Below, in pieces: positions 12,234 to 34,719 of a DNA stretch of 64,000 nt. The stretch lies in NCBI GenBank assembly GCA_001600175.1, contig BCJC01000001.1, forward strand, positions 4,015,652-4,079,651, in the 5' to 3' direction. How positions within the stretch are numbered: position 1 is the first letter of the stretch; every line of letters begins with the position of its first letter. The notes under the pieces are model-generated. The model saw nothing but the letters and a program-made list of their open reading frames with translations. It was not told the origin of the DNA and did not search any database. Source of the DNA: Erythrobasidium yunnanense (taxonomy: Eukaryota; Basidiomycota; Cystobasidiomycetes; Erythrobasidiales; Erythrobasidiaceae). The position numbers were made by a program, and so were the translations under genes.

Positions 12234-13330
12234 CTATGCAAGGGTATCGACCAAAGTATCACGCATGTTGCCGATGTTACTCGTATCCTGCCCTTGCAGC
12301 TTGAATGCAGCTTCGATAACGGATACTTCTGTAGCTGTTGTGTCGACTCCAGTGAACGCGCACCAATCTATAAAGAAGTAGAAATGCTTAGCTACAAACG
12401 CCATACATAGAGGAAAGAGCAGACTGACCGTTCACGACCATGCCTGCGCCTATCACGTCCGATCCTCTGTTGACGGTTCCAGCCTGAAGAGTGTCTGTCA
12501 GCACACAATATAGCTTAAACGCAGAAATTACTCACAACCAGAGGGACCTGCAACAGACTCGACAATTCATCCTGATCCTGGATCGTTGTCTTCGGGTGCA
12601 CGAGAGCTCCTTGATTCGTAAGAGCCGCATAGCTTCCTACTAGCACGTTATTCGCGATTGTCTGTCTGAATACCTCCACCTTCAGGACGTCTGCGATGAT
12701 CTCCTCTGTCTCCCTGTCGATATCTGGGTGCACTAGCGCGACATAATCGTTACATGCGACGACGTTTCCTAGCGCTGATAGACGCTCTTCCACTCTTTGT
12801 ATCGCTACGCTGTCTGGAAGGGAATTTCGTAAATGTTGCAATTCTTGATCGGTCGTGGTGACCGGCACTAGGAGCCCGTGTCGGTTGCCTTGAAAGCAGC
12901 GATACAATGAGTACTGGCCTGATGAAGATAACGCATGGAGAAAGGGCCTACCTGCCGTCAGTCTGCCAATTATTCTTGTGCCACCGATAGAGGTCTCAAT
13001 GACTGGGATGACATCCTGGAGTTCTGCTTCAAAGGTTGAGTAGAAGTTTGTGGATCCAATGGACATAGAGGCCAGGCAGTAGCTGTTCAGCAGGGAATCT
13101 TAGCATAATTTCGCCAGACGTAAGAAGGCCAGGGGAACCAACGAGTTTGTGAGTTTGGCAAAGACGCCAATGTCCTGAAGCATTGCACATTAGATTGTAG
13201 ACGATGGTGCGACTCCTTTCCTCCCTCACTGATGAGTTTTCGTATCTACAGCCTGGAGCGTCATGGGCAGGGAAGTCAGCTCGAGCTTTCTATCGTGATT
13301 TGGGTCGCAGTTTGCCGTACGGACAGCCAT
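12234..13330 (-). CDS. TIF6: Eukaryotic translation initiation factor 6
   Basis: eIF6/Tif6 is a 60S subunit anti-association and biogenesis factor of nucleolus and cytoplasm. The start is ATG 13330-13328. A 10-nt first exon (MAVR) joins through small exons to give [20 protein letters not shown] and then [20 protein letters not shown], a perfect family start. The core contains [38 protein letters not shown] and [15 protein letters not shown]. The last exons encode [37 protein letters not shown] and an end ATLA-like tail stopping at 12234-12236. Five or six introns are present. The gene is divergent from TIM9 with a shared promoter of about 208 bp. Confidence 0.95.
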
Positions 13331-14117: not shown

Positions 14118-15762
14118 CTATTCTTGCGGAGCCTTTATCGGCGGAGGTTCGTATTCTTCGGGCGGGAGTAAACCCTCTTCTTCTCGCTCCAAGAGTTGGC
14201 GAATGTTGAAGCCGCACATGCAGCAGTAAGCGTCTTTTGGCCGTTCAGGTTGGAAATCGCTTTGCGGTAGAGGAGCTGATGCGCCATATTGAGGGACCTT
14301 AACCCACTCGGCAAGGAGCGTACACTAGGAGCAGGGAACAACAGAGGATTAGTCTTCTCGACACCAGCGCACAGACGAGATTTTGTCGCCTACACATGCC
14401 AGCGTGACCGACGTATTGAGTTTGATGGAGGATTCCTGTCTTTCCTCATCCATGATCACAACTTCCAGGACGATCTGGTGCGAGATATGATTCGGCGTTA
14501 CTGTGTTCTTCAGAGTGGAAGGAGCCAGATAGCGTTCATCCGGCAGTCTAACACTCTTCTCTATAGAAAAGCTATTTTGCTCTTGCTCCAGAGCAGGGGG
14601 GCTAAGGTTTATCAGGGAGAACACAAATGGTCCTTCGTTGAAAGCTGGCCCGCCAGCATTTAAAGACCGCCACGAAAATATTTGATGGATCGAGACGCAT
14701 ATCTTTCGTAAGACACTCCTGGATGGGATATCCGGTAGGTTGATATTGATCGCGAGGCTTACAGAAAATGAACCGGTCAACTAGCCCAACACGACGGAGC
14801 GGCTGTGGGAACCCACAGAGAAGCGGGTGTGAAATTTCGCGCCATCAAAAGGACCTTGATGGGTCCTGTCTGAATTGTAAACTCTTCGATGACCTGCCTG
14901 CCAATACGATCGTTTAGCTCGGCGAGGTGGTGAATAGTCGAGCGAGGACCTCACTCCAGCGGAGGCGGCAATTCTCCAGGCTCGGCAGGGCTCGCTATTA
15001 GTGCAAAGAATTTGTTGTGATAGGTGGTTTTCCATTCATCCATGCTGCCTTCTAGCAGTAATCCCTTGCGACGCGCAGGGAATTCTGCTGTAAATTTGGA
15101 GAGTCTCCCATCGGCTTGGCGCCTTTGCATTACTAGCTATATCCACAGAAGCTTAACATCCGGTTTGTGCGCCAGCTTCCGGTGTGCAAAGCGACTTGCC
15201 TCTAGGGCATACCACATGTTGAAAGAAGAGATGTCCTGGACAGCCTGCGATGCCGGAGCCACTTCGTTGAGCATGAAGTGACGAGGCCATGCAGTGCATG
15301 GGAGAGTGAATATGAACGGAAAGCTGTATCGACGCCGCTGCTTAGTAGACGATAAAGTACGGCGCGGCGGTTAACTCACTCATGAGACCCAGCTCCCAGC
15401 TCGTTGTCCGGAGCTTGTATTCGGCAAGAGTATCCGGGCAAACTGCCTTCATCCTGGTAGCCTTTTGAACAAGGAAGACAGACTCGACATAAGTCTAGGA
15501 ACCTCAACTCGTGCAGCGAAAGGCTGTATTCACGCTTGTTGCGTACGAACCACCTTGGCGTAAGCGTAGTGTACATTTCGACAATCGTTTCCGGCTTCTT
15601 CAAGGTTATTCTCAAGCGGCCCGTCAAAGTTGTTGTTTTAGGAGCCTGGCTTCCAGGCTCCATCGCCGATGGATATACATGATATAGAGGTGGTTTCGCG
15701 TCGAAGGAAGGTTCAACGGTGATGTCGGGCTTGCCCGACCCAAAGAGTTTCGAGAAAGACAT
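14118..15762 (-). CDS. Arrestin-like protein, tandem copy A
   Basis: The start MSFSKLFGSGKPDITVEP is at 15762. Later exons show an arrestin-like beta-sandwich pattern: a segment with RITLKKPETIVEMYTTLTP, a middle exon with RRQADG...KFTAEFP, and a C-terminal lobe with LKNTVTPNHISHQIVLEV, close to the arrestin-related (LDB19/ART-type) C domain. It ends with a conserved Cys-containing module (YCCMCGF) and EEYEPPPIKAPQE. About four or five introns are required. Fungal arrestin-related proteins usually recruit ubiquitin ligase to plasma-membrane transporters, but a canonical PPxY motif is not evident here, so that role is only possible. It is a paralogue of the gene at 16307-17944 in the same orientation. 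Confidence 0.75.
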
Positions 15763-16306: not shown

Positions 16307-17944
16307 TCAATCTGGACGAGCCTTGATCGGCGGCGGCTCGTATTCTTCGGGCGATGATATTCCTTCTGCCTCTCTTTCCATCAGCATTTCTAGAGTGAAC
16401 CCACAAGCGCAGCTGTAGATGTCCTTCGGCCGCTCTGGCTGAAACTCGTTGCGAGCTGGCGGCGAGGCGCCGTATCGTGGTACATTTACCCATTCGGAGA
16501 GGAGCATACACTGAAAGATAACCAGTGATTAGACCAGAGGTCGTCGGGTATGCGAAGTGTATTACTCACGCTAGCTAATGTGACCGGCTCGCGGATGCTG
16601 ATGATCTTCTTATTCCCTCCGCCATCGACAATCTCGAATTCGAAAACGATCTGATGTGATATGTTATTGGGCGTTATCGTATGCTTCAGCGTAGTTGGCG
16701 CAAGATATCGATCGTCCGGCATTCGGACCGTCTGGCCAATGGAGATACAGCCTCCGTTTTCCTGATCGGGGAAAGGTGGTTCGAGGGACATGAACGGGAA
16801 GAAGAACGGTCCTTCGACAAAGCTTGGACCGCCAACATGGAGCGATCGCCAGGTGAATGTCTGATGGACAGAAGCGCGGATCGCACGCCATATAGTACCA
16901 GACGGGACATCCGGCAACTTAATGTTCAGAGTGATGCTGGTTGAGAACGTATCAGTCCAGAAAACCAGTACCAAAGGTATAGCCAGTCGGTCAAGCTCAC
17001 AGAGCACCGGGAGTAAACGCTCGTGAGGTCATGATGATGTTGATGGGGCCTATGTGAGGGGCAAACTCTTCTATAACGCGCCTGACAAGATGGTCATCAA
17101 CATATTGGCAATTTGATTGCGACAGAAATTTTGGCAACTCACTCCAGAGGAGGCGGCATCTCGCCAGGATCCACAGGGCTAGCTATCATGGCGAAGAACC
17201 TGTTATGGTAGATCTCCTTCCATTCATTAACGCTTCCTTCCAGGAGCAAGGCCTTCCGCCGCCTCGGAAATTCAGCTGTGAACTTTGAGAGCGTGCCATC
17301 GGATTGCTTTCTTTGTATGACCAACTGTATATGGCCATAGGAACAGATTAGAAGACGAAAAGAGCTAGATTGTACCCTCAATTACACTCGCCTCAAGCGC
17401 ATACCAGACATTGAACGTCGAGATATCTTCGATCAGTTGCGCAGTTGGTCCATAATCATTGAGAACAGATGCACGAGCCCAAGTAGTGCATGGCAAGGTG
17501 AATATGAAGGGAAATCTAACATATTCGTCAGCCCGGCATTCTTACATAAAGCAGCTCGACTTACTCATGCTGTCCAGCTTCCAATTGACTCTCTGTATGC
17601 TCTATACGGCACGAATAACCAGGCAGACTACCTGCATCCTTGCAGCCTGTGTCCATAGTTCAGCTACCTCAGACGAGATCTACATCTTGAGGGAGCAGAA
17701 ATCGGAACTTACGTTTGTTCCTCACGATCCAATTTGGCGTAAGTGTAGTATATATCTCAACGAACGTCTCAGGCCTCTTCAAAGTCACTTTGAAACGACC
17801 GGTGATAGTCGTAAACTTTGGCGCCTGACTTCCTGCGTTGACAGCGTGAGGGTACAGGATATAGAGAGGAGGTTTCGCATCGAAGAAAGTCTCTACGATG
17901 ATGTCTGGCTTGCTATTCAATCCAAGAAGCTTCGAAAAGGACAT
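16307..17944 (-). CDS. Arrestin-like protein, tandem copy B
   Basis: The start MSFSKLLGLNSKPDIIVE at 17944 is nearly the same as in copy A. The exon order matches: GRFKVTLKRPETFVEIYTTL, then QRKQSDGTLSKFTAEFPRRR, then a lobe with LKHTITPNNISHQIVFEFE, then WVNVPRYGASPP and a Cys-containing module (YSCACGF), ending EEYEPPPIKARPD at 16307. The shared start, tail and intron layout show that A and B arose by tandem duplication. What has been said of copy A's possible role applies here. Exon boundaries in the middle were not all fixed. Confidence 0.75.
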
Positions 17945-18079
17945 GACCAGAACTCAGGAAAGGTCAGGGCCAGAGCATAGTGCTGAGGTCTTAGGGATGC
18001 TTTAGATCTTCGGACAAGAGATCTTGAAGTCTAAGATGCTCTTGCGACTGCGTGCGACTTGACAAGAGGCCAAGTTCAG

Positions 18080-19189
18080 ATGGATCATGCAGCTTCGCTT
18101 TCCTTCGTACTACATCCTCCGAAAGGTTGCCGTAGAGTAATGGCTACAGAGACTCCAGCATCTGTACAAACAGATATACATCGCCTTCCGCCAGAGATCC
18201 TGTCGCATATCCTCTCGTTTCTGCCGGCGTCATCGCTAGCCGTATGCTGCACCGTCAATAAGGACATGCTGGACCTCTCGCTACCTCATCTCTACACACA
18301 TATGGACTGTCTACAACTCGCAGGATGTCTTGCGACCCTGCGACGAGCCTCAAAAGCGGAGGATCAGTCGAGCTTCATAAGCCGTCATCTGCACAATATA
18401 CAAAGCATACACATTCCGAAGCGTGCCGCTACACATGAAGTCAAAGCTGCTATAGCTACGAGCTTGGCAGAGAACATCAACCTGGGCCATTTCCCGAACC
18501 TTCGGCTCATAAGCTGGCCGTTTGGGTACATCAGGAGAGGGTTCTTGGAGGATGAGGATGCCGCTGTCTTCGATGAGCCACTGTGGGAGGCTCTGCTGCA
18601 TGGATGTCCGAAGCTGTATGTCAGACGACCCTCGTATTAGCTCGATTGACAAAATCTACCGCAGGCAAAGGATCGTTATCGGCAGTACGGCATACCAGCA
18701 TCCGAAGTCTGCTGTGAGCACTATAGCGCTATTCTACATTACTAGACTGACCCGCGCATCTTCCATTATAGTTATGGCTTCTAGCGGAGAAGTGTTGTGT
18801 AATTTTGCAGACTGCGAGCTGGCAGCTGCGAGTCAACAGTCTGCAGAGGCTGGAGCCGCTGTAGCCGGAAAGTGAAGGGGTTCTACCAAATTTCCAGCTC
18901 AACCAGCCTTCGTCTGGGTGTCGCAAGCTTACTGTAGCTACGCCACGCTGCGACCTTCAAACGTACGCATCACCCACAAGTTATCCTCTTCAGCAAGGTC
19001 ATTGTATTCCTTCTCCTATTACAGTCTAGAAGCATGCCTCGTCAACAAATGCAACCTTCCTATTCCTAGGTATTGAAGTTGAAAACAAAGGTCATTTTGC
19101 AGTGGTCTTGCGAGATCTTCCTCAACATACAAGAGCTGCGACTGTCACTCGACTGCAGGAAGACTTCGTGCGGCTCTGCAGCTGCATAG
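18080..19189 (+). CDS. F-box-like protein, 3' structure uncertain
   Basis: The first exon is open from 18080; an internal ATG at 18140 is an alternative start. It carries an F-box-like motif (IHRLPPEILSHILSFLPASSLAVCCTVNKDML), typical of adaptors for SCF ubiquitin ligases, followed by leucine-spaced sequence (FPNLRLISWPF, LLHGCPKL). A GTATGT donor after CCGAAGCT begins an intron ending at CCGCAG. Downstream pieces (WLLAEKC..., LRVNSLQRLEPL, and CEIFLNIQELRLSLDC near 19110-19160) look like more leucine-rich exons, ending at a TAG at 19187-19189. I could not join them with confidence, so the gene may be shortened or decayed at the 3' end. Confidence 0.5.
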
Positions 19190-19213
19190 ACGCGTACCTC
19201 CAATGTTTACGTC

Positions 19214-19236
19214 ACGCGTCCAGACTAAAACACGTG
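19214..19236 (+). promoter_or_regulatory. ACGCGT-N11-CACGTG element upstream of DDE-like copy 1
   Basis: ACGCGT at 19214-19219 and CACGTG at 19231-19236 lie about 110 bp before the ATG. The same pair with nearly the same spacing precedes both other copies. ACGCGT is the MluI cell-cycle box in fungi and CACGTG an E-box bound by bHLH factors; their use here is inferred. Confidence 0.55.
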
Positions 19237-19344
19237 CCTACTTTTGGTGACGTTGTTGTTTGTCGCTGCCGCAAGAAGTGATCTCTTCAGGAGCAGCTAG
19301 TCAGACCCTCTTCTCTTCTTTCCATTCATCATCATACCGCAAGC

Positions 19345-21050
19345 ATGTCACAAACTCCCCTCACAAACGCCGAAAAGGCAGCCAAAATGGACGAGGCTGT
19401 AGAGGAGTTTATGCGCATCAAAAAAGACTTTCCCGAGATTGCGATGTCTGAGGTAGCTCGTGATCATGGCGTAAACCTCAACACGATGCGAGCCCGCGTC
19501 CGAAAAGCTTCTGGCCTCGTCCTCACTCGACCGGAAGAAGACAGACTTCGCGGCTATGCTATCGGCCTCTACGACAGCGGTGGTGCTCGTACAAAGAAAG
19601 CGCTACTGGAGTACGCGCACATAATCCAAATGGACAAGGAATGTCCCGCAAAGCTAGTTGACAGAGCTTGGGTTCAAGGGTTTCTTGGGAGATACCCGGA
19701 GGTCCAGCTGCGCGGTTGTGCAAAAGCCGACAATATCGCATTCGTACAGTCGTATGCCGAATTTTGCAACTTATGGGAGGATGTAGGTTCCTTAATATTC
19801 TAGACCGTTCAGACAAGGCATGAGCTTAGACAACCCTCAGATCGCCCAAACATCTCTAGAGTATGAGATACTCGAGCCTTCGCAGTTCTGGTACTTCAAC
19901 GAAACATCCTTCTATGCCGACTATGAGGGCGATCTCGCTACGTTCAAGCGTTACGAGGACAACGCGATGGAAGACCTCGAGTCGGGAGAGTCTCCGATCA
20001 CCGTCCTTATGGCCTACTCAGCTGCTGGAGACCTCATAAAGCCTGTTCTCCTGTTCGAGGAGGACGAAAAGCCAATATTGCCTTCGTCGAGCACCAAACG
20101 TGTCAAGCTGGCCTCTACAGATGATGGACTACTCGATGCGGTAGGGGCATTAAAGTGGTTGGAGAGGTTTGAAGTGGCCTCGAAGCAGTAGTGAGCAAAG
20201 TCCGACCTCTACTGTAATTTCAGCTGACGCAGAGATCGCACAGCATCAAGCCGGAGCAATGGCGATATCTGTTCATGGATGGAACAATTGCGCTTACGCT
20301 AGAATTCGTCGAATATGCGGTCGAACACAAAATCTTATACGTCCTCTACGTAATCTCTCCTGCATCCACGAATATCTGTCCGAGCCGGCAGAGCACCACA
20401 TGATCTGGGACTTGGAGGACATATATCGCTCTACTAAAAATGCGCGTCTAGTTGATGGCTACCTCAAACCTCGGCAATTCTACGAGACTTTCGAAAGCAA
20501 GTGGAAGGCAGCTTTCGAGGACCCAGACGTATGTGTCGATGCGTTCCAGAGCGCAGGCATCTTTCCCGTCGACATGACCAAGAACGAGAAGGTCATGGCA
20601 TATAAGACTGTGCAGCAAGACATTGAGACGAGCCGAGCGGCCGATGTTACCTTGGAAAGCCTCGGAAAGCATAGTACGCCCACGCCGCAACAAGTCAAGA
20701 GTCTCCTCGACGAACGCCTCAGCAGAGTAACGCAGGACGCAGACTCTCTTACCACCAAGACCGACTACTTCTTGCTTGAGCAGACGCGCAGTCTTCTGCT
20801 GGAGGAGACTGCCAAGGTCAATGAGCTGTCAAGAGGAATCGGATCACGAGAGGATGAGAAAGGCGATACGCAGGAAGGGCAAGCATTCGCGAAGTGTCAA
20901 GGCAGCGAGACCAAGGTCGAGCGTTCAACATCCAGCAATGCATATCCGCGTGCGGCACTTGGCGAGAGGAAACGGCCAGCTGCGCAACCTCAGCCATGGG
21001 GGAATGCGAAGAGACCGAGAGTTATTGTACCGGCATCTTCAATCTGGTAG
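19345..21050 (+). CDS. Domesticated pogo/CENP-B-like DDE protein, copy 1
   Basis: Three exons (19345-19782, 19841-20190, 20244-21050). Residues about 20-55 form a psq-type helix-turn-helix (MSEVARDHGVNLNTMRARVRKA). Residues about 60-118 match the CENP-B/Tc5-type DNA-binding domain (LTRPEEDRLRGYAIGLYDSG, then AWVQGFLGRYPEVQLR). The DDE region follows, with FWYFNETSF where active transposases have DETGF, so the first catalytic Asp is Asn. The second Asp is present in YLFMDGT; the third position reads EPAEH (Glu). A basic tail (KRPAAQPQPWGNAKRPR) suits nuclear import. Within exon 3, near 20340, the frame that matches the paralogues shifts by one base: exon 3 is one base short of a multiple that would keep frame. 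This may be a real frameshift (making copy 1 a recent pseudogene) or a sequence error. Confidence 0.75.
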
Positions 21051-21354
21051 CTTGAAGCTGGTCCGAAGTCGAGCAGCAGATATTTGCAGTCCTCTATATC
21101 ATGTCTGTCTCCGGAGGCCTTGTAGCAGTATAGCCGCTGCACTGCCAAAGGCAGAGCCGCTTCATGCAACGCGCTGCCCTTACGAAATATGCTTCTCTGC
21201 CAGTCTCGTCCTCTATATATACGCGTCGCAAGTTTGTTCACGTGCACAGATTGACGCTTGTTTTTGTTATTCGAGCCCTTCTTGACTTCTCTTCAACTGC
21301 TCTCCATCGACAGGATCCCTTCTGCAACAAGCGCCTAACCTCTGCCACGCAAAG
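21051..21354. other. Intergenic region between DDE-like copies 1 and 2
   Basis: This 304-bp gap carries the copy 2 promoter with the ACGCGT/CACGTG pair and a CT-rich leader. No terminal inverted repeats or target duplications of a transposon were noticed. Confidence 0.4.
21221..21244 (+). promoter_or_regulatory. ACGCGT-N12-CACGTG element upstream of DDE-like copy 2
   Basis: ACGCGT at 21221-21226 and CACGTG at 21239-21244, about 110 bp before the ATG at 21355, in the same order and orientation as for copies 1 and 3. Confidence 0.55.
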
Positions 21355-23104
21355 ATGAGCACACGCGATGCCGAATTAGAAGCTTGGTTCCCGCTGCAGC
21401 AGCGGCTACTCGATTGGGCACTTCGCGAGTTCTACGATGCGCAGTCTTCAGTCCTCACGGACCACATCACCCTCGAGGATTGTGCTCTCAAGCGTCGTGT
21501 TACGCTGAAGGCCTTGCAAGCGCATATCAAGAAGACTAAAGGGAGATGTCTGTCTAGCAGTCAAGAAAGTATGCTGGTTGGCTATTCACTGGGTATTCGG
21601 AGTGAAGGTGAAAACAGCAATGCCGGCATACTAGAGATGGCTCAAAGGCTGCAAGATCGATACGAGCGAGGCACCAAACCCTTGGATCGACAATGGCTTC
21701 GACGCTTCTTCTACCGCCATAACATGGCGGTGGCTCAGCCAATGCCCAACTGCGAAAAGAAGTCCGCAGTGCCTGAGAACTTCTCTGATCTCTGTGAATT
21801 CTGGCAGCAGGTACGGCAGGCGAGGGCAACCATAATCCAGTAAAGCTCGGCTGATCCTTGCACAGCTTGCACAACACTCGACAGACTATCAACTGGCGGA
21901 CGCCTCGCAATACTGGTACCTCAGCGAAACTACCTTCTTTGGGGAGTTTTGTTGCAAGGATCAGTGCGGTGTCCTAGGAACTGTCAAAGCCTTCGACGAC
22001 GATCTGCGTGACCTTTACGACTGCACGTCCCAATATCCTGTCACAGCTCTCGTAGCATACTCAGCGGATGGCCAGCTGGTTCCGCCTACCATTTTGTACG
22101 AGGAGGAAGAGTTCGGCCAGCTGGAGCTGGATAGTGGACCAGAATCTGTCTGTGCAGCTGGTACACCGCTCGGCCTGCTGGATGAGAAGCAAGGATTAAA
22201 CTGGTTGAAGACGTTTGAGGCATCTTCCAAAGGGTGGTGAGCCTACAAATCTTTCAGAGATGTCACGTTTGGTTTCTAAATCGTATTGGGCAGTATCAAG
22301 TCAGGTCAATGGCGACTTCTCATTATGGACGGCTCGCCCTTCATTCCCGCGTCATCTGCGATCTCAAGGGAGTTTCTCCAGTTTGCTAGTGACCACAAGA
22401 TCATCGTCGTAGCAATCAAGAATTCAACGTCGATCCACAGCTATCTATGTGCGCCAGTGGACGTACACTACCTTACCGAGATGAAGCGGATCTACCACGA
22501 CACGAAAGATCCCAAACTCTGTCCAGGTCGCTTTATGTCGAGAAAAGGGCTCTATGACTCCTTCTCAGGCATCTGGAAGGATACATTCGCAAATTCAGAA
22601 GTGTGTCGCAAGGCTTTTAAAGAGGCGGGCGTGTTCCCCGTCGACATGCGCAAGAATGAGAAGGCAATCGCGCTGGCACCTCAGCCTAAGAAGGGTCAGA
22701 AGGCGCCAGAGATTCCTAAAGCTGCGGCAGTGAAGAGTCGGGCGCCTCTGAGTCTGCAGCAAGTCCAAAATCTTGTCAATAAGCGTCTAGAGGGAGTCAG
22801 GCCTGAGACAGCACAAACATGGTCCACCTCTCTTCACGGAGACTACGCCCTACTTGAGCATGTGCAGCAGCTCCTGCAGACCCAGCAGAGCGACAGTGTA
22901 CTACCGAGAAAGTCCAAGGCTCCAGTCAGGCGGAAGACTACTCAGGTGCAGTCAAAGAAGAGCAGTGCCACTAGTGTAGAGAAAGTAGGAGCTCAGGTCG
23001 GTCTTGAGCAGCCGGAAAGCTCTGTTCTCAGACGTAGCAAGCGCGCCGCACCGCAAACCCAAAATCACAGCCAAAGCACTCAGAAGCGCGCGAAGAAGGC
23101 ATGA
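21355..23104 (+). CDS. Domesticated pogo/CENP-B-like DDE protein, copy 2
   Basis: Three exons (21355-21810, 21866-22236, 22294-23104) give an intact 545-residue protein; intron phases (0 and 2) are the same as in copies 1 and 3. The N-terminal helix-turn-helix is weaker than in the others (LEDCALKRRVTLKALQAHIKK), followed by the CENP-B-like segment (LDRQWLRRFFYRHNM). In the DDE domain the first acidic position is Ser (WYLSETTFF), the second Asp remains (LLIMDGS) and the third remains (APVDVHYL). The conserved C-terminal element is EVCRKAFKEAGVFPVDMRKN. The tail is Lys/Arg-rich. Loss of the first catalytic Asp with an open frame suggests a host DNA-binding protein rather than an active transposase. 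Confidence 0.82.
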
Positions 23105-23311
23105 AGCGAAGACGATAGTGTAAGTGGAGCGTTCCTCCGTGTCTCTCGTTATATCCGTTCAGTATAATGCCTTTAGTACCTTTTCTTGCAGCCTTCTAAT
23201 CTGTAGCTAGTCCAACCTTCTTGCGCTTTGTTATTCTTAGTGTAGATGTCCTATATTCTGTAATCACTGGCAGGATTGATCGCGAAGGAGAGCTTCATGT
23301 TTACCTACGCG

Positions 23312-23335
23312 ACGCGTTACTGTCATAAACACGTG
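23312..23335 (+). promoter_or_regulatory. ACGCGT-N12-CACGTG element upstream of DDE-like copy 3
   Basis: ACGCGT at 23312-23317 and CACGTG at 23330-23335, 56 bp before the ATG at 23392. Spacing within the pair equals that in copy 2, although the distance to the start codon is shorter. Confidence 0.55.
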
Positions 23336-23391
23336 CTGTCAGCTGGCTGTTTATTTTCCTGCAGCTTCTATTCCTAACGACTTCTGCAAGG

Positions 23392-25187
23392 ATGAGCTTG
23401 GAGAGGTTCCTCAACAGGCTAGGACGAGATGAAGAAGAGGAAGAACGGGCTCGCCAAGAGCAAGCTCGCCAGATGAAGAAGGCCATGCGAGCCAAAGACA
23501 AGAATCCAGATACATCAGTCGCAGAGATTGCACGTACTTATGGCGTGAATGTTGCAACGTTGCGCAACAAGATCAAGAAAGCTGCTCCTCCTGCCCTCAC
23601 CAAACCCGAGGAAGCCAGACTCTTGGGTTACGTCGATGGTCTCTTTGAAGCTGGCAACATTGTCGATAGAGCGGTGCTGCTGAAAGGAGCCCATCGCAGT
23701 CAATTCGAGACCATCAAATATCCTAAAACTGCAAGAAACCTTGTCTATGTAGACGAGAATTGGCTAGACGAGTTCATCGACCGCAACCCGGAGATTCGGT
23801 TTCGCAGCAGAGCGAAATACGATAACTTAAAGATTCGTGACTACGAGTCTTTTGGACATGCTGTCAGTTTCTGGGAAGATGTGCGTACCCGTCTTAGTAG
23901 CTTCAAGGTACCCAGCTGAGGATAAGCCCATGGTGCAGCTTGCTATCAAGTGCCTAAAGTTTCGGATCTTCGATGCTGCACAAGTCTGGTATCTTAACGA
24001 GACCTCGTACTTGGCAGAGGTCGACGGAGACGGCGAGAATGCTCTTGGCTCCATCAAGCGGTACGCATGCGGGTTGTATGAATATTACGATTTCAAGCAG
24101 TCCGTCATCACGTCCCTGACAGCATACTCTGCTGCTGGACATCTGCTTGAGCCTTCCCTCATATTCCGAGCCAAAGATGTTGAAGATAATGGCTTCAGTC
24201 CGGACGAGGACGGTGTTGCTATCGCAACAAGCCAGACGGAGGATGGCTTGCGGAGTAAGAAAGGAGAGCTCGAGTGGATGGAGAGATTTGAGAAGCTCTC
24301 GAAACCTTTGTGAATGTGCTTGAGATTTCCGCATTCCAATATTCATCGTCTGATGGTCCGGCTCCAGCGTACAGCCAAACCAGTGGCGCCTCTTGCTAAT
24401 GGACGCGACGTCGTTGAGCTTCGAGTGCGACTACTACGCCAGGCAGAAGCACATCCAGATCTGCGATGTGCGCAATCTCGAGTTCGTGCACAATTACCTA
24501 GTCCAGCCAGCAGACGTGCACGCTTTCACCGACATGGCCAAAGAGTATCGTGGTACCGAAGATTCCGATTTGATATATGACGACAGTCTTATGCCCCAGG
24601 GCTTCTACGATACTCTGTCATCGTTTTGGGGAACAGCTTTCGGAGATGCAGCTGTCTGTCGGAAGGCATTTGCGGAATCTGGTGTCTTTCCAGTCGACAT
24701 GAGCAAGAATGAGAAGGTCGCTGCTCTCAAGGTGGAAGAGCAGGAGTTCCGGAATTCCCTCAATGCCAAGTCTGGCGACGCTCGTATGCGATGGGAGCTT
24801 GAAAGAACCAAGACTCTCGAGCGAACACGCGTGACAGAGCTCATCGATGAGCGTCTGAGCAAGACGACAGTGGAGCCAACAGAGGATCGCCCGAGTGCCG
24901 ACTATCGTGACTACCTGCTCTTGCAGCGCGCACGGGCTCTCGTACGACAGCAAGCAGAAGAGAACGAGCTCCTGAGGAGGTGTCTGGCTGAGCTGAGGGA
25001 GGACATGGAGCAGGAGATGGTGGAGGGAGCCATCTCGCCAGCTGCAGCTGAGGGTACGGACAAGGCGCCTGTTCTGCCAGCCTCGTCAAGTGCCACGCCA
25101 TTGGGCAGCAAGCGGACAGCTCCGCAACTGTCCCCGTCGAAGCGTAGGAGAGTGGATGATCAGTGTAATGTGTATGGAATGGTATGA
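23392..25187 (+). CDS. Domesticated pogo/CENP-B-like DDE protein, copy 3
   Basis: Three exons (23392-23880, 23939-24309, 24368-25187) give an intact 559-residue protein. An acidic, Arg/Glu-rich start leads into a clear helix-turn-helix (VAEIARTYGVNVATLRNKIKKA) and the CENP-B-like domain (LTKPEEARLLGYVDGLFEAG, then ENWLDEFIDRNPEIRFR). The DDE region has Asn at the first acidic position (WYLNETSY), keeps the second Asp (LLLMDAT) and the third (VQPADVHAF), and has the C-terminal element SGVFPVDMSKN. A Glu/Leu-rich region predicted to be a coiled coil follows (about residues 390-480), then a basic tail (PSKRRRVDD). A likely nuclear DNA-binding protein; biological target unknown. Confidence 0.83.
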
Positions 25188-25365
25188 GGCAGGAATTCGT
25201 CTGGGCAGATCCGCTAAGCCGGCGGTTTAAAGTAGTAGACAGTGTGTTGTGTCGTTCTAAACGGCTGTGTGCTGTAGCAGGTCTGATTCGAAGCAGCATT
25301 GCTCGGGCTCTTCACAACTGATTCGGCACTTCGCATCCCTGGCTCGAAAGGGCATCTTCGCAACT

Positions 25366-26443
25366 ATGAGCATCAAGGATGGTTCTTCTACCGCTGCTGC
25401 GCCTGCGCCTGCGCCAGCCAGCGCGATATCGGTCTTCTCGCAGCTGCCGCCAGACCTGACTGAGACCATCTTGCAAGGTATTCATGCCTCCCATACACCA
25501 AGAAACGTCCATTGCGCTCATGCTGGCATTGACCAGTCGTGACTGGCGCCAGCGGCATCATCGAGAACAGCCCTTATCGACCTTGGCGGATCAAGAACCG
25601 GTACTACGAAACGACTGTCTACTTCCATATCTTAAAGAGCTTGTACCAAGTAGCAAAGAATGTACAAGCTGGCTCGCCTGCTGTCTTGGTCTTGCTGGAT
25701 AATTCGAAGGTATGCAAGAGCGCTCGGTCCATAGTATAGCAAGCTGACGTGAAACTAGCAGGACGCCAATATGAACTTCCTATCGCAACTGGACGTAGAT
25801 AGTATCGATATACCGCTCGTAGCGGGCAAAGCGAGTCAAGCGATAGCGAGTGGTCAAGATATAGCGGACGAATGCTTTGCAAATGGCTGGGAATACGTAG
25901 ATCTCGAGGAAAGTGGACAAGATGAAGCGGGAGGTACGCACATACCAGCTCATGACTGAGTATACCGCACCTTATGCGCAATCGGCAGGCCAAACGGGAT
26001 ATGCTAGACTGTCAGAAGCTCTGCAAGCGCACATGTGGCCTATCCTGAACGATGAAGAAAGTCATTCACAAGACACGAAAGCGCCAGAAGTCTCGAAGCA
26101 ACCGGAGACAGGCAAGGCCCAGCTAGCTTTCAACGATGACTTCTCTCCCTTCATCAGCAGATCTCAGTCTACATCAGGCCCAATTGAAAATCATACACCT
26201 CCTGAGGACTGGGAGAAAGAGCTATCCCTCGCCGATTCCGATGCCGATAACGATGCACAAGACCCGACTGCAAGATTAGCGAACATGTTCGCTTCATTAG
26301 CGGACCTGAAAGATCAGGCTATGTCTCTGCCGGAGGGAGATAGAAGGAAAGACTTTGCAGCGGACATTGCCATGAAGTTTGCGAAGCAGCTGGACTCGCT
26401 GATCGAGGGTGATGATAGCGATGAAGACGCAGCGAGGAGGTGA
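25366..26443 (+). CDS. Alpha- and gamma-adaptin-binding protein p34 (AAGAB/IRC6 family)
   Basis: p34 binds clathrin adaptors AP-1 and AP-2 and acts as their assembly chaperone. Start ATG 25366. The first exon has an Ala/Pro-rich lead and ISVFSQLPPDLTETILQ, then an intron beginning GTATTC leads to VVTGASGIIENSPYRPWRIKNRYYETTV, which matches the family's pseudo-GTPase N-terminus (PWTIDNKYY in animals). Then come AVLVLLDNSK, an intron with GCTGAC, IADECFANGWEYVDLEE, and the signature C-terminal helix LANMFASLADLKDQAMSLPEG. Stop at 26443. The first intron contains an in-frame-looking stretch, but only splicing it out fits the family. Confidence 0.82.
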
Positions 26444-26495: not shown

Positions 26496-28320
26496 CTAGC
26501 TCGATGCCTCCTCCTTGCCCGTCTTATCTACGATATCCGTACTTCCAAAGCTGAGAATCCCAGCCTCATCGAGCTGTTTGACCGTCTCTTCACCTTCTTC
26601 CACCGCCATTCTCCCCAATACCTTATTGACATCTTCCAGACTCTTACTCTTGAGTGCTTTCTGGAGGTTCTTCGGGAAGCTAGTGAAGATATCCCATCTC
26701 TTCTGCAAGAAATCCCTCACTACTACAGGGTCCATATTTTCGCTTCCTTCACCCTCTAAGGTGATAGTCTCGGGCGGAGGACCGTCGGGTACTTCGAAAG
26801 TTATTGTCGTGCCGGGGTCGGAGGCGACGAGCTGGATCTGCTCTCGCTCCCCTTGGGAATTCACACCGGCTTCGGTGCGCTCGGCTAGCATCTCTACACT
26901 CCGCTTGGCTATCCTGTCGTATGTCTGTTGGACATCGTCTCGGAACACCTTGAGCGCGTCGTTGTTTGTAGCCATTCTGTGACAAAGGAGAGTTAGCTAA
27001 GCTTCTATATAGCAGGTGTCAGAGTCAGCCTACCGCTTGAAGAAGAGCGCCACGCCATCTTTACCCAATTTCCTGCAGTACTGCAACACGAGTGCCTGAT
27101 GGACACACGCATACAAGTATTTCTTCTCTCCCCTCATACCAGCTTCGAACGCTTCCATGAGGATCGCGTCATTCACATCTTCTTTCAAAAGTGTGGGTTC
27201 TTTACTCAGTGCATTGAAAGCTTGTTCCCAGTTCCCTACTTCGAGCTTTGTGAATTGCTTAGCGGAGGGCGTGAGCGTTGGGACTTCCTCATCATCGTCG
27301 TCGCCATCGTCTTCATCTTCATCTCCGTCTGTAACATTGAGCTTGGCGACTTCGGTGTCTGGCGCATAACCTGATTGAGAAGGTCCAGCATCTGCTTGAG
27401 ACCCGCTTGATTTCGGGTTCAAGGTCTCGATTTGTGTAGTCTTCTCAGTCTTCTTTTGCGCTTTCACTTTGGGCGCTGGCTTTACGGGATCTACGATCTG
27501 CGCTGTTGCTGCGTTCTTATTGACGTGCTGGAAAGATCAATGCGTGGATCAGCGTGGAAGCGAGGAATAGACAATGTGTGACTCACACCAGAGCTGAAGC
27601 CTTCGTGGATATCCTCGCTCGTGATGAGCTTCTTTGCTTCTGCCTGTTCCCTTTCAATCTCTTTCTTGCAATGCTCAGTCCTGTCTGCCAACTGCTTCCT
27701 GTGCACCTTGAGAGTCTTCTCCAGCTCTCTACTCCTCTCTGTCGTATCGTTGACCTTCTTCTCCTGCACCTCTGTCGCTACCGTGTTCATGAGGTGATAG
27801 ATCATATCGTCGTAGCTCGGTTGATCAGGCTTGCTTCCAGGGGGTTTCTCAGCATCAGGTCTATCCTTGGTACTCTTCAACTCTGCCATGTGTCGTTCAA
27901 AGTAGGCTGTCCCTTCAGACCCTACTTTGGAGATAAGAGCATCGAGACGGGGTAGAAGGGTATTGTTGAGCGCTATCTCGCTCTCGTGAAAGGCAATGCG
28001 CCGTCTGCGCTCTTCTCGCTTCTCGTGGATATCGCGTTGCTTCCATCTAAGACCTCGGTTCAGCTTACGTTCATGCTGGCGTATCCAGTAACCAGTCGCA
28101 CCGGATGAATGACTTCTTGTCGACGCTGGACATCACAATCAGGATCAGCATTCGTACATTGACAGTATTCTAGCCGTGTCTCCCCCACTTCGGGTGCACC
28201 TCGACGTCGCTCTCGTCGCTGAGCTGTACTGGCGCAGGATCCAGTCAGCATACCAAGCTACACTCCCTACAAGTATCACTACTCATCTAGCTTGTCCCAC
28301 TTGTTGTAGTTGAGCGGCAT
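26496..28320 (-). CDS. CDC37: Hsp90 co-chaperone Cdc37
   Basis: Cdc37 delivers protein kinases to Hsp90. The N-terminal signature MPLNYNKWDKL starts at 28320 and continues ELSDESDVEVHPNVDK...RWKQRDIHEKREER after small exons. The middle holds the long coiled coil (EKTLKVHRKQLADR), then the Hsp90-binding domain (FTKLEVGNWEQAFNAL, LVLQYCRKLGKDGVALFFKR) and the C-terminal part ending GKEEASS at 26496. Introns occur after each of these pieces. The first intron (28286-28226) fits only as an AT-AC intron. The acidic linker (DGDEDEDDGDDDDEE) is longer than in yeast. Assignment is firm. Confidence 0.94.
28226..28286 (-). other. AT-AC intron 1 of CDC37
   Basis: Exon 1 ends GACAAGCTAG, the intron begins ATGAGT, contains TGCTGAC near its 3' end and ends GTAC; the next exon begins AGCTCAGCGAC. 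Only this junction gives KWDKLELSDESD. Every GT donor in the vicinity is in the wrong phase or lies after a stop. Confidence 0.65.
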
Positions 28321-32247: not shown

Positions 32248-34719
32248 ATGCGGGATAGCGCGCACGACGAGGACGACGAAAGAGGAGGGACCCAGCTCAG
32301 CGCGCGTACCGATATTGTCTGTATACTGGCAGGATTGGTAGGGAGAGAATGCGAACAGCGTAAAGCAGAGCTGTAAGTTTCAGTTGCATGGAAGCCGCAG
32401 CTCTTTTCGGTCGTTCTTGACGCGCCTTTCCGTCGTAAACGCAGGCTCGCACAGAACAGCAAGCTGCGTATACGACAGTCCCATCATCATCATCATCACG
32501 ATGGAGCACATCGCCATGTTCAGCAGCAGCATCAGCAGCAGCGCCGACGTCTGCGAGAAAGGGAGCAGTTCACCGTGACTTTCAGCAGCGATAATGGGCT
32601 TATCAACAGCGACGATCGCGGACTACTCTATTCCTTACTGTACCCTACAGCTACTCCTACTTCCACGTCCACCCTGACGCGTGCAACAACGACGCCGGCG
32701 CAGTCTCTGCAGACCGGTCAGTCGCGGTCAAGCCTGTCGACCAGACCGCATATCATTTCAAGCTCATACAGCACAGATGCCGGGAGACAGCCTCTGTACA
32801 CGACGACGTCACGGTCTACTAGTAGCTCTTCGAAGCAGCGACAGTCCCAATCAAAGTCTGAAGATAGGGTTGGTTACAGCACGAGCTCGAGCTCGAAGCA
32901 TACGCCAGCACCAACACCCAATCCGCATGAAGAGGGGAAGAAGCAGGGTCAGAACGAGCCACATAACAATCCTCAGCCGCCAATAACCCGTACATCAAGC
33001 AGGACAACTTCGTCGCAGCGGAAGACCATCACGCGCTCGACGACGTCGCCAGGAGTCGCGAATACATCTGGGATCGTGCGAGTCTGCGTAGCGCGACCTT
33101 CGTCCAGCTCAAGCGTGTCCAACGCGCCCTCGGCCGAGAGCGGCTCTGCATCAAATTCGAAGCAGGCTTCTTCCTCGTTGGCGCAAACCACTCCTACACG
33201 AAGTGCCTCTGGCAACTATGCACGAACAACTGCTTCGACTCAGATATCAGGAGGCCAGACGACCATCTTCGACTATGGCTGCTCCACCTCCTCGTCAGCA
33301 AGTACTAGTTCGAGCGCAACATCAGATACTTCTATTGCACTTCCTTCAAGTGTCGATCCGATAGGCAATAACGCGAACGGCGAAAAGGATCAAAGCGAGC
33401 CAGTCGCCTTCTTCGCGACTTCAGGCGGGAAAGGCACGATAGCAGGAGTTTCGTTAGCTGGCGCAGCAGTCGTAGCCGGCCTAGCATTCATCTTCCTTGT
33501 TTGGAGGAAGCGACAAGCGAGCAAGACGGGCGGCGTGTTTCTTGCAGGCCGACGAGCTAGCGGGAGAAGCTCTACTTCGAGTTTTGGGGATTCTACAACC
33601 AGCTTACCTGGCATGCAGGAGACCTATCGCGATGGTAACTGGACTCAAGAGAATCTCAATGCTTCGCAGCCATATCTACCAGCGCCTGTAAACGAAAGAT
33701 CCTTCTTCGTCGAAAGTCGGCGGTTCGACAGTTTCCCTCGCGGGCAAACAGTGCCAGCAGGTGCTTTCACTGGCGCTATTCCAGTCACGCGACCAGCTAT
33801 GACGCGCGCCAACCTTTCGGACGATCAAGATCCCTTCTCCGACCCCTCTTCGTCTGGTCATGGAACGTCTGAGACGCAGCATACAGTTGTTTCTCCAGGC
33901 ATGATGGCGGCTTGGCACGCTACTGGCTTGTCTGGAGCAGTAGCGACTTCGGACGAGGACTATAATGCTCGAAACCATCAGCGTCGCAGATCAGGGTACA
34001 TGTCTGATACCTATCGCAGCAGGAAAAGCAGGAGTAGACCCGTGAGTCACAATCGTTTCAGGCATGGACAGCGAAAGAAGCTCACAGTTGCGATGACTTC
34101 GCAGCTTTCCGTTCGCAATCCAGACTCCGATGAGACAGTGCATACGGAACCTCATGCGACCGCTTCTTCAGATGGCGGTCATTATACTTCTGAAGCGTAC
34201 CCAAATGCCTACCATATGGCCTCTGGACCAGCTATAGGCGTCGTTCCGCCAAGTCCCGAGCAGCAGCGCACGTTACCACAGCATTCTGGAAGCTGGCAGC
34301 CCTGGTCTCACCCTCATTCATACGCTTCTCAGCATCCTAATAATCGAGCCTCTACACCTCCTATCACGACCATATACCCATACTATTCCAATTCTCCTCA
34401 AGAAGTGCAAGGCAGCTTTACTCCTGGTCTACCTCACCCTATATCTGTGCATCACGAAGCAACAGGCTCCCATGGGTCGTTGGGTGATCCAGCTGGCAGA
34501 GCAACGCCGGCTAGCTCCATATCCAGCAGTCTTTGGCGGCCGGACAGTATTCTCGATAATGCACAACAAGGCCCGCCCCGGGCACCATGGATGAATGAAG
34601 GAGTAGAAACGCCGCATGAAATACAAGATGTGCAATTAGGGACGGTGCAGGGTGCAGGTGGTAGATCTGCAGGACCACCGCTTGGCTTGGCAGGCGGGGA
34701 CAGTTATTTCGCAAGATAG
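32248..34719 (+). CDS. Ser/Thr-rich single-pass membrane protein
   Basis: Exon 1 is 32248-32372; an intron starting GTAAGT (32373-32444) joins it in phase to a long second exon, giving about 799 residues. The N-terminal half has a His/Gln-rich stretch and then about 230 residues dominated by Ser and Thr, a probable O-glycosylated outer segment. One clear membrane helix follows (GVSLAGAAVVAGLAFIFLVW) directly followed by RKR, and a 400-residue polar inner tail. The architecture recalls fungal cell-wall stress sensors, but there is no WSC domain and no obvious signal peptide; a weak hydrophobic patch is in exon 1. Role unknown. Confidence 0.7.

Follow-up and report, generated by a model that had tools for sequence, protein, structure and literature searches.

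Three tandem genes of Erythrobasidium yunnanense, probably an old family domesticated from a pogo-superfamily transposase

Results

The array of three genes

We begin by considering an array of three genes, g1, g2 and g3, in a 64,000-nucleotide stretch of DNA from the basidiomycete Erythrobasidium yunnanense (contig BCJC01000001.1; hereafter the window, 64 kb). The genes lie head-to-tail on the plus strand with starts at 19345 (g1), 21355 (g2) and 23392 (g3), giving start-to-start spacings of 2010 and 2037 nt and a repeat unit of about 2.0 kb. The exon/intron models were built by hand from the window sequence, and are the source of the features below unless another is named.

19214..19236, plus strand: g1 promoter pair ACGCGT-N11-CACGTG, 131 nt before the ATG (motif search)
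19345..19782, plus strand: g1 exon 1, N-terminal helix-turn-helix (HTH) region
19783..19840, plus strand: g1 intron 1, phase 0
19841..20190, plus strand: g1 exon 2, first half of the DDE region
20191..20243, plus strand: g1 intron 2, phase 2
20244..21050, plus strand: g1 exon 3, frameshifted once near 20347 (model and comparison with g3)
21221..21244, plus strand: g2 promoter pair ACGCGT-N12-CACGTG, 134 nt before the ATG (motif search)
21355..21810, plus strand: g2 exon 1
21811..21865, plus strand: g2 intron 1, phase 0
21866..22236, plus strand: g2 exon 2
22237..22293, plus strand: g2 intron 2, phase 2
22294..23104, plus strand: g2 exon 3, second half of the DDE region and basic tail (model and residue counts)
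23312..23335, plus strand: g3 promoter pair ACGCGT-N12-CACGTG, 80 nt before the ATG (motif search)
23392..23880, plus strand: g3 exon 1, predicted fold with CENP-B (1hlv) as top PDB match (model, fold search)
23881..23938, plus strand: g3 intron 1, phase 0
23939..24309, plus strand: g3 exon 2
24310..24367, plus strand: g3 intron 2, phase 2
24368..25187, plus strand: g3 exon 3, second half of the DDE region, C-terminal helix region and KR-rich end (model, Pfam, residue counts)

Each gene contains two introns (53-58 nt), the first in phase 0 and the second in phase 2, and their positions coincide in the alignment of all three genes. These rebuilt models confirm the three adjacent head-to-tail genes and the shared intron positions and phases claimed by an initial annotation of the stretch, and they also bear out its two fully open copies and their wide divergence: the frames of g2 (545 amino acids) and g3 (559 amino acids) are uninterrupted, g1 is frameshifted, and the pairwise protein identity within the array is 30-38%.

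What breaks g1 is one frameshift near 20347; beyond it, another frame is open up to 21050. Residues identical to g3 in the alignment number 112 of 296 upstream of this point and 86 of 225 downstream, an undiminished similarity that makes the lesion either young or an assembly error. That g1 is in fact intact, with the shift explained by a third intron or by the assembly, agrees with the persisting similarity downstream, and we consider it possible but doubtful. By eye, a 68-nt GT..AG stretch in g1 would restore the frame, but its removal would delete a segment whose similarity persists in g2 and g3, neither of which has an intron at this position, and a third intron is disfavoured on this ground. 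Copy 1 may have been lost recently, may encode a truncated DNA-binding form, or may owe its frameshift to the assembly.

Remote similarity to Cbp1 and CENP-B

The array was compared with the fission-yeast protein Cbp1 using a sequence of which residues 1-141 are confirmed against 1iuf and the remainder is not confirmed letter by letter; beyond residue 141, Pfam reads it as DDE_1 at 1.3e-50. Aligning the array profile with this sequence by hhalign gives a score of 37.0 (E 3.9e-4, probability 35.7%) over 67 columns, and pairs LLLMD with LLIMD and QPADVH with QPLDQG. None of 200 shuffles reaches this score (the best is 22.3), and the reversed control gives 13.3. The predicted fold of g3 exon 1 has the CENP-B DNA-binding domain (PDB accession code: 1hlv) as its top match among solved structures, while the predicted model of the DDE half (predicted local distance difference test, pLDDT, of 36) is too poor for a fold search. 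Judged by sequence profiles and predicted fold, the array proteins appear to be remote homologues of CENP-B and Cbp1 in the DNA-binding region and of pogo transposases in the DDE domain.

The exact type of the N-terminal HTH is a different matter. HTH_psq is absent from the Pfam rows of all three proteins, and the "psq-type" label of the initial annotation is not reproduced; instead, the N-terminal HTH of g1 and g3 scores weakly as HTH_Tnp_1, and HTH_Tnp_Tc5 is listed for g2 below its cut-off (E 0.024).

Elsewhere in the genome (20.9 Mb in ten contigs), a long low-complexity protein contains a CENP-B/Tc5-type HTH with an E of 2.8e-12 (G000:C6:908870-909058, L033). A scan of 890 of its residues gives no further Pfam match at E 0.001, DDE included. 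It shares this HTH type with the array but differs in being a long low-complexity protein, and a profile of array exon 1 has no detectable similarity to it.

Catalytic positions and C-terminal tail

The catalytic positions were placed by eye on the alignment of the three proteins, using the motif of pogo transposases. The first position is N in g3 (WYLNETS), S in g2 (WYLSETT) and N in g1 (WYFNETS), the Asp being lost in all; the second is D throughout, and the third is D in g3 and g2 and E in g1. An intact DDD/DDE triad is therefore seen in none of the three copies by this alignment. Between the second and third positions there are 36 (g3), 43 (g2) and about 37 (g1) residues, which places g3 and g1 inside the DD29-42D range of Lemi transposases and g2 just above it (pogoR: DD29-59D/E; PMC7386202). 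Near the C-terminus all three proteins have a KR-x-A-x-Q motif, and K or R make up 7 (g3), 14 (g2) and 10 (g1) of the last 60 residues; these KR-rich ends are a putative nuclear signal.

Copies, repeats and selection

In the E. yunnanense genome, protein searches with g3 and g2 return 7 and 8 matches, all within the array, and a DNA search with g3 returns only g3 plus a 79-nt stretch of g2, these results being lower bounds. Among 19 inverted pairs of at least 14 nt listed in 18600-26200, none flanks the array or any of its genes (the search misses repeats that are shorter or gapped), in line with the initial annotation, which had seen no terminal inverted repeats (TIRs). Divergence between the copies is highest at third codon positions (0.63-0.68) and amounts to 0.39-0.47 at second positions; the nonsynonymous divergence (dN) is 0.63-0.83, and the synonymous divergence (dS) is saturated and not computable. 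An MG+F3X4 codon model, with kappa not fitted, only three sequences and saturated dS, gives an omega of 0.228, with a log-likelihood of -5616.2 versus -5704.6 when omega is fixed at 1 (a gain of 88; 505 codons). By this estimate (omega of about 0.23) the array proteins are under purifying selection. Two outcomes had been named beforehand as refuting the reading of a recruited host family, namely dispersed near-identical copies with TIRs and a dN/dS near 1; both were looked for and, within the limits of the searches, neither was seen.

A promoter pair shared by the three genes

Each array gene is preceded by the pair ACGCGT-N11/12-CACGTG at the distances listed above, and g1 has an additional ACGCGT 155 nt before its ATG. 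At spacings of 5-20, these three pairs are the only ones in the window, where 0.03 are expected and none of 100 shuffles reaches three. The spacers differ among the three promoters while both hexamers are identical, which looks like the footprint of selection. Genome-wide, at spacings of 9-14, the pair occurs 19 times (16 outside the array) versus 11 for the reversed pattern, and so does not mark a large regulon; the frames around 15 of the 16 non-array sites reveal no clear regulon either. One non-array pair (L023, G000:C5:1536200) lies about 0.5-0.6 kb before a frame that we take, from its sequence, to be histone H3-like. CACGTG is a basic helix-loop-helix (bHLH)-type site.

In fungal G1/S genes the MBF/SBF-type site is ACGCGT, a hexamer enriched in the DNA-replication promoters of the basidiomycete Cryptococcus neoformans (PMC5448814, PMC5137879). 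As in MBF-type G1/S genes, it stands close upstream of all three array genes (80-155 nt). Outside the array, 2.2% of 200-nt windows contain ACGCGT, which serves as the background, and none of nine other window genes has ACGCGT within 200 nt of its start, starts being taken as the first ATG of one open frame (for CDC50, SDR and p34 probably not the true one). An S-phase set of nine genes was also inspected in the same genome: RNR1, PCNA, RNR2 and six places that we presume, from their sequences, to be MCM genes. The start is readable in five of these, and ACGCGT precedes four, at 181, 120, 147 and 77 nt for RNR1, PCNA, RNR2 and MCM7; it is not found before the start of MCM4. Four MCM places with unreadable starts were dropped from the count, among them an MCM2-like one with ACGCGT 446 nt before an apparent second-exon ATG. 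Judged by their promoters, the array genes are probably made at G1/S.

Neighbourhood

The array is surrounded by ordinary, gene-rich DNA. Its neighbours include eIF6 (12518-13099) and an F-box frame (18035-18637) on one side and, on the other, CDC37 (26499-28132) and a frame for a p34 adaptin-binding protein (25901-26440). Two paralogous open frames on the minus strand, upstream of the F-box frame (14352-14780 and 16489-17028), are 51% identical over 134 residues and have no Pfam match at E 0.01. On the plus strand, an open frame of 780 codons (32377-34716), rich in His and Gln at its start, has no Pfam match at E 0.001. Outside the window, an integrase (rve) match lies on the minus strand at G000:C5:31677-31922, within an open frame with a reported length of 4258 codons, and three of the four genomic rve matches fall within the first 50 kb of contig G000:C5.

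Discussion

The best explanation of the array, and in our judgement a probable one, is an old family of DNA-binding proteins that was domesticated from a pogo-superfamily transposase and duplicated in tandem, with expression at G1/S and a role like that of Cbp1 or CENP-B. The host family of pogo/Tigger-like origin proposed initially, with centromere, silencing or transcription control put forward as candidate roles, is supported by the remote Cbp1/CENP-B homology, the lost Asp and the lack of further copies, and it gains from the lack of detected TIRs, the low omega, the common introns and the common promoter element. An intron-bearing gene would have been duplicated twice together with its promoter. 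Its products would enter the nucleus through their KR-rich tails, recognise a particular DNA site through two HTH units, perhaps pair via the C-terminal helix, and have no transposition catalysis. G1/S production is suggested because ACGCGT would be read by the MBF-type factor of the host. In that case they would label repeats, origins or promoters around the time of replication, much as retrotransposon long terminal repeats (LTRs) of fission yeast are marked by the Cbp1 family. The array proteins are most likely comparable to this family: nuclear DNA binders that are site-specific, lack catalysis and are made at G1/S. A more specific proposal, which we hold only tentatively and consider rather unlikely, is that they form a separate basidiomycete recruitment, an S-phase CENP-B-like system whose diverged paralogues would read different sites at centromeres, origins or repeats and be loaded during replication.

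The closest comparison is the Cbp1 family of fission yeasts (Cbp1/Abp1, Cbh1, Cbh2 and Cbt1-6), alongside Cbt7 of Dipodascaceae. The Cbp1 family derives from Lemi-type pogo transposases; its members bind and repress retrotransposon LTRs and prevent replication forks from stalling there (PMC10085805). Like the array, it is a small multi-gene family, with tandem HTH units and a DDE domain that are putative in the array, and all three S. pombe Cbp1 proteins have lost at least one catalytic acid (PMC10085805); the putative DDE region of the array aligns by profile with Cbp1. It differs in belonging to ascomycetes, and Cbt1-6 are six syntenic genes in three species, a tandem array not being described in the available part of that account (PMC10085805), whereas the array is tandem, with two common introns, a basidiomycete host and the ACGCGT/CACGTG pair. 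Mammalian CENP-B, TIGD, JRK, POGK and POGZ are also domesticated pogo-superfamily proteins (PMC7386202, PMC10085805). The predicted DNA-binding region resembles CENP-B in having 1hlv as its top match, a comparison made through the exon-1 fold alone, but these are separate vertebrate recruitments. With the pogo-type fungal transposons Lemi and Fot the array appears to share the domain order; unlike them, it has no first Asp, no TIRs or dispersed copies that were found, and introns common to its copies. In the portions of the literature covered, the domesticated fungal examples named come from ascomycetes, namely the Cbp1 family and Cbt7. A survey of 1237 fungal genomes, including 195 from Basidiomycota, links more than 1000 candidates to transposon domains, of which DDE_1 is one (PMC10799480), so basidiomycete cases may be among them. 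Our literature search returned no paper joining CENP-B, transposase and Pucciniomycotina. Domesticated pogo proteins are already known, and it is the tandem layout and the promoter of the array that are unusual.

The main rival keeps the same origin and takes the proteins as ordinary promoter-bound transcription factors, on the model of the Pdc2-type regulators of yeasts, with no centromere, repeat or replication role; we regard it as a credible reading, though not a probable one. Domain make-up does not discriminate here, the array lies among ordinary genes, and possible silencing targets are few: integrase-domain matches in the genome number four (three over the cut-off), which fits either effective silencing or a missing target. 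A role in replication or chromatin agrees better with the G1/S-type promoters, although transcription factors of S phase are also known, and the name Pdc2 does not occur in the literature among the matches listed. Two other readings rank as less likely. Three decaying pogo-like remnants that landed side by side by chance would account for the transposase ancestry and the frameshift in one copy of three, and selection for mobility could also keep omega low. Identical intron sites and phases, a promoter pair common to units of about 2.0 kb, two intact frames that share 30% identity, and the failure to find TIRs of at least 14 nt or dispersed copies make such a coincidence very improbable.

The remaining reading, a lineage-specific fungal DNA-binding family that resembles pogo proteins without descent, draws on a set of results that weigh against our preferred explanation. 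No Pfam model reaches its cut-off in g1, g2 or g3; the best row of g3 is DDE_1 at E 0.017, below cut-off, and unrelated families score about alike, so that the CENP-B/Tc5 and DDE domains annotated initially are less firm than stated, with remote similarity suggested by the Cbp1 alignment and the fold search. The Cbp1 match, at its probability of 35.7%, falls inside the unconfirmed part of the Cbp1 sequence used, and PDB sequence searches with array queries return nothing beyond weak, unrelated rows. Among 5.8 billion proteins, two word-based searches, in which candidates are only those sharing 5-residue words, yield no homologue of g3 at E 0.01 and none of the three-gene alignment at E 1 (7996 candidates scored in each). 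As a sampling control, window CDC50 has leading named matches of 49-55% identity among the best 120 of 2966 (Phenoliferia, Rhodosporidiobolus, Leucosporidium, Rhodotorula, Mixia and similar, which we take to be Microbotryomycete-type yeasts and Mixia, in Pucciniomycotina) and, among other records of the same 120, leading near-full-length matches of 65-66%. We infer from these identities that the host probably belongs to an undersampled lineage of Pucciniomycotina, and because the leading CDC50 matches reach only 65-66%, "no homologue" may partly mean that no near relative is sampled. As no shuffle reaches the Cbp1 alignment score, CENP-B tops the fold search and the motif order of the DDE domain is kept, we consider mere resemblance improbable.

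CENP-B-like proteins arose repeatedly from pogo transposases, and a domesticated family in a basidiomycete would add a test of why these transposases are recruited so often. The promoter pair is a concrete lead to S-phase expression, and three diverged paralogues permit asking whether DNA specificity split after duplication.
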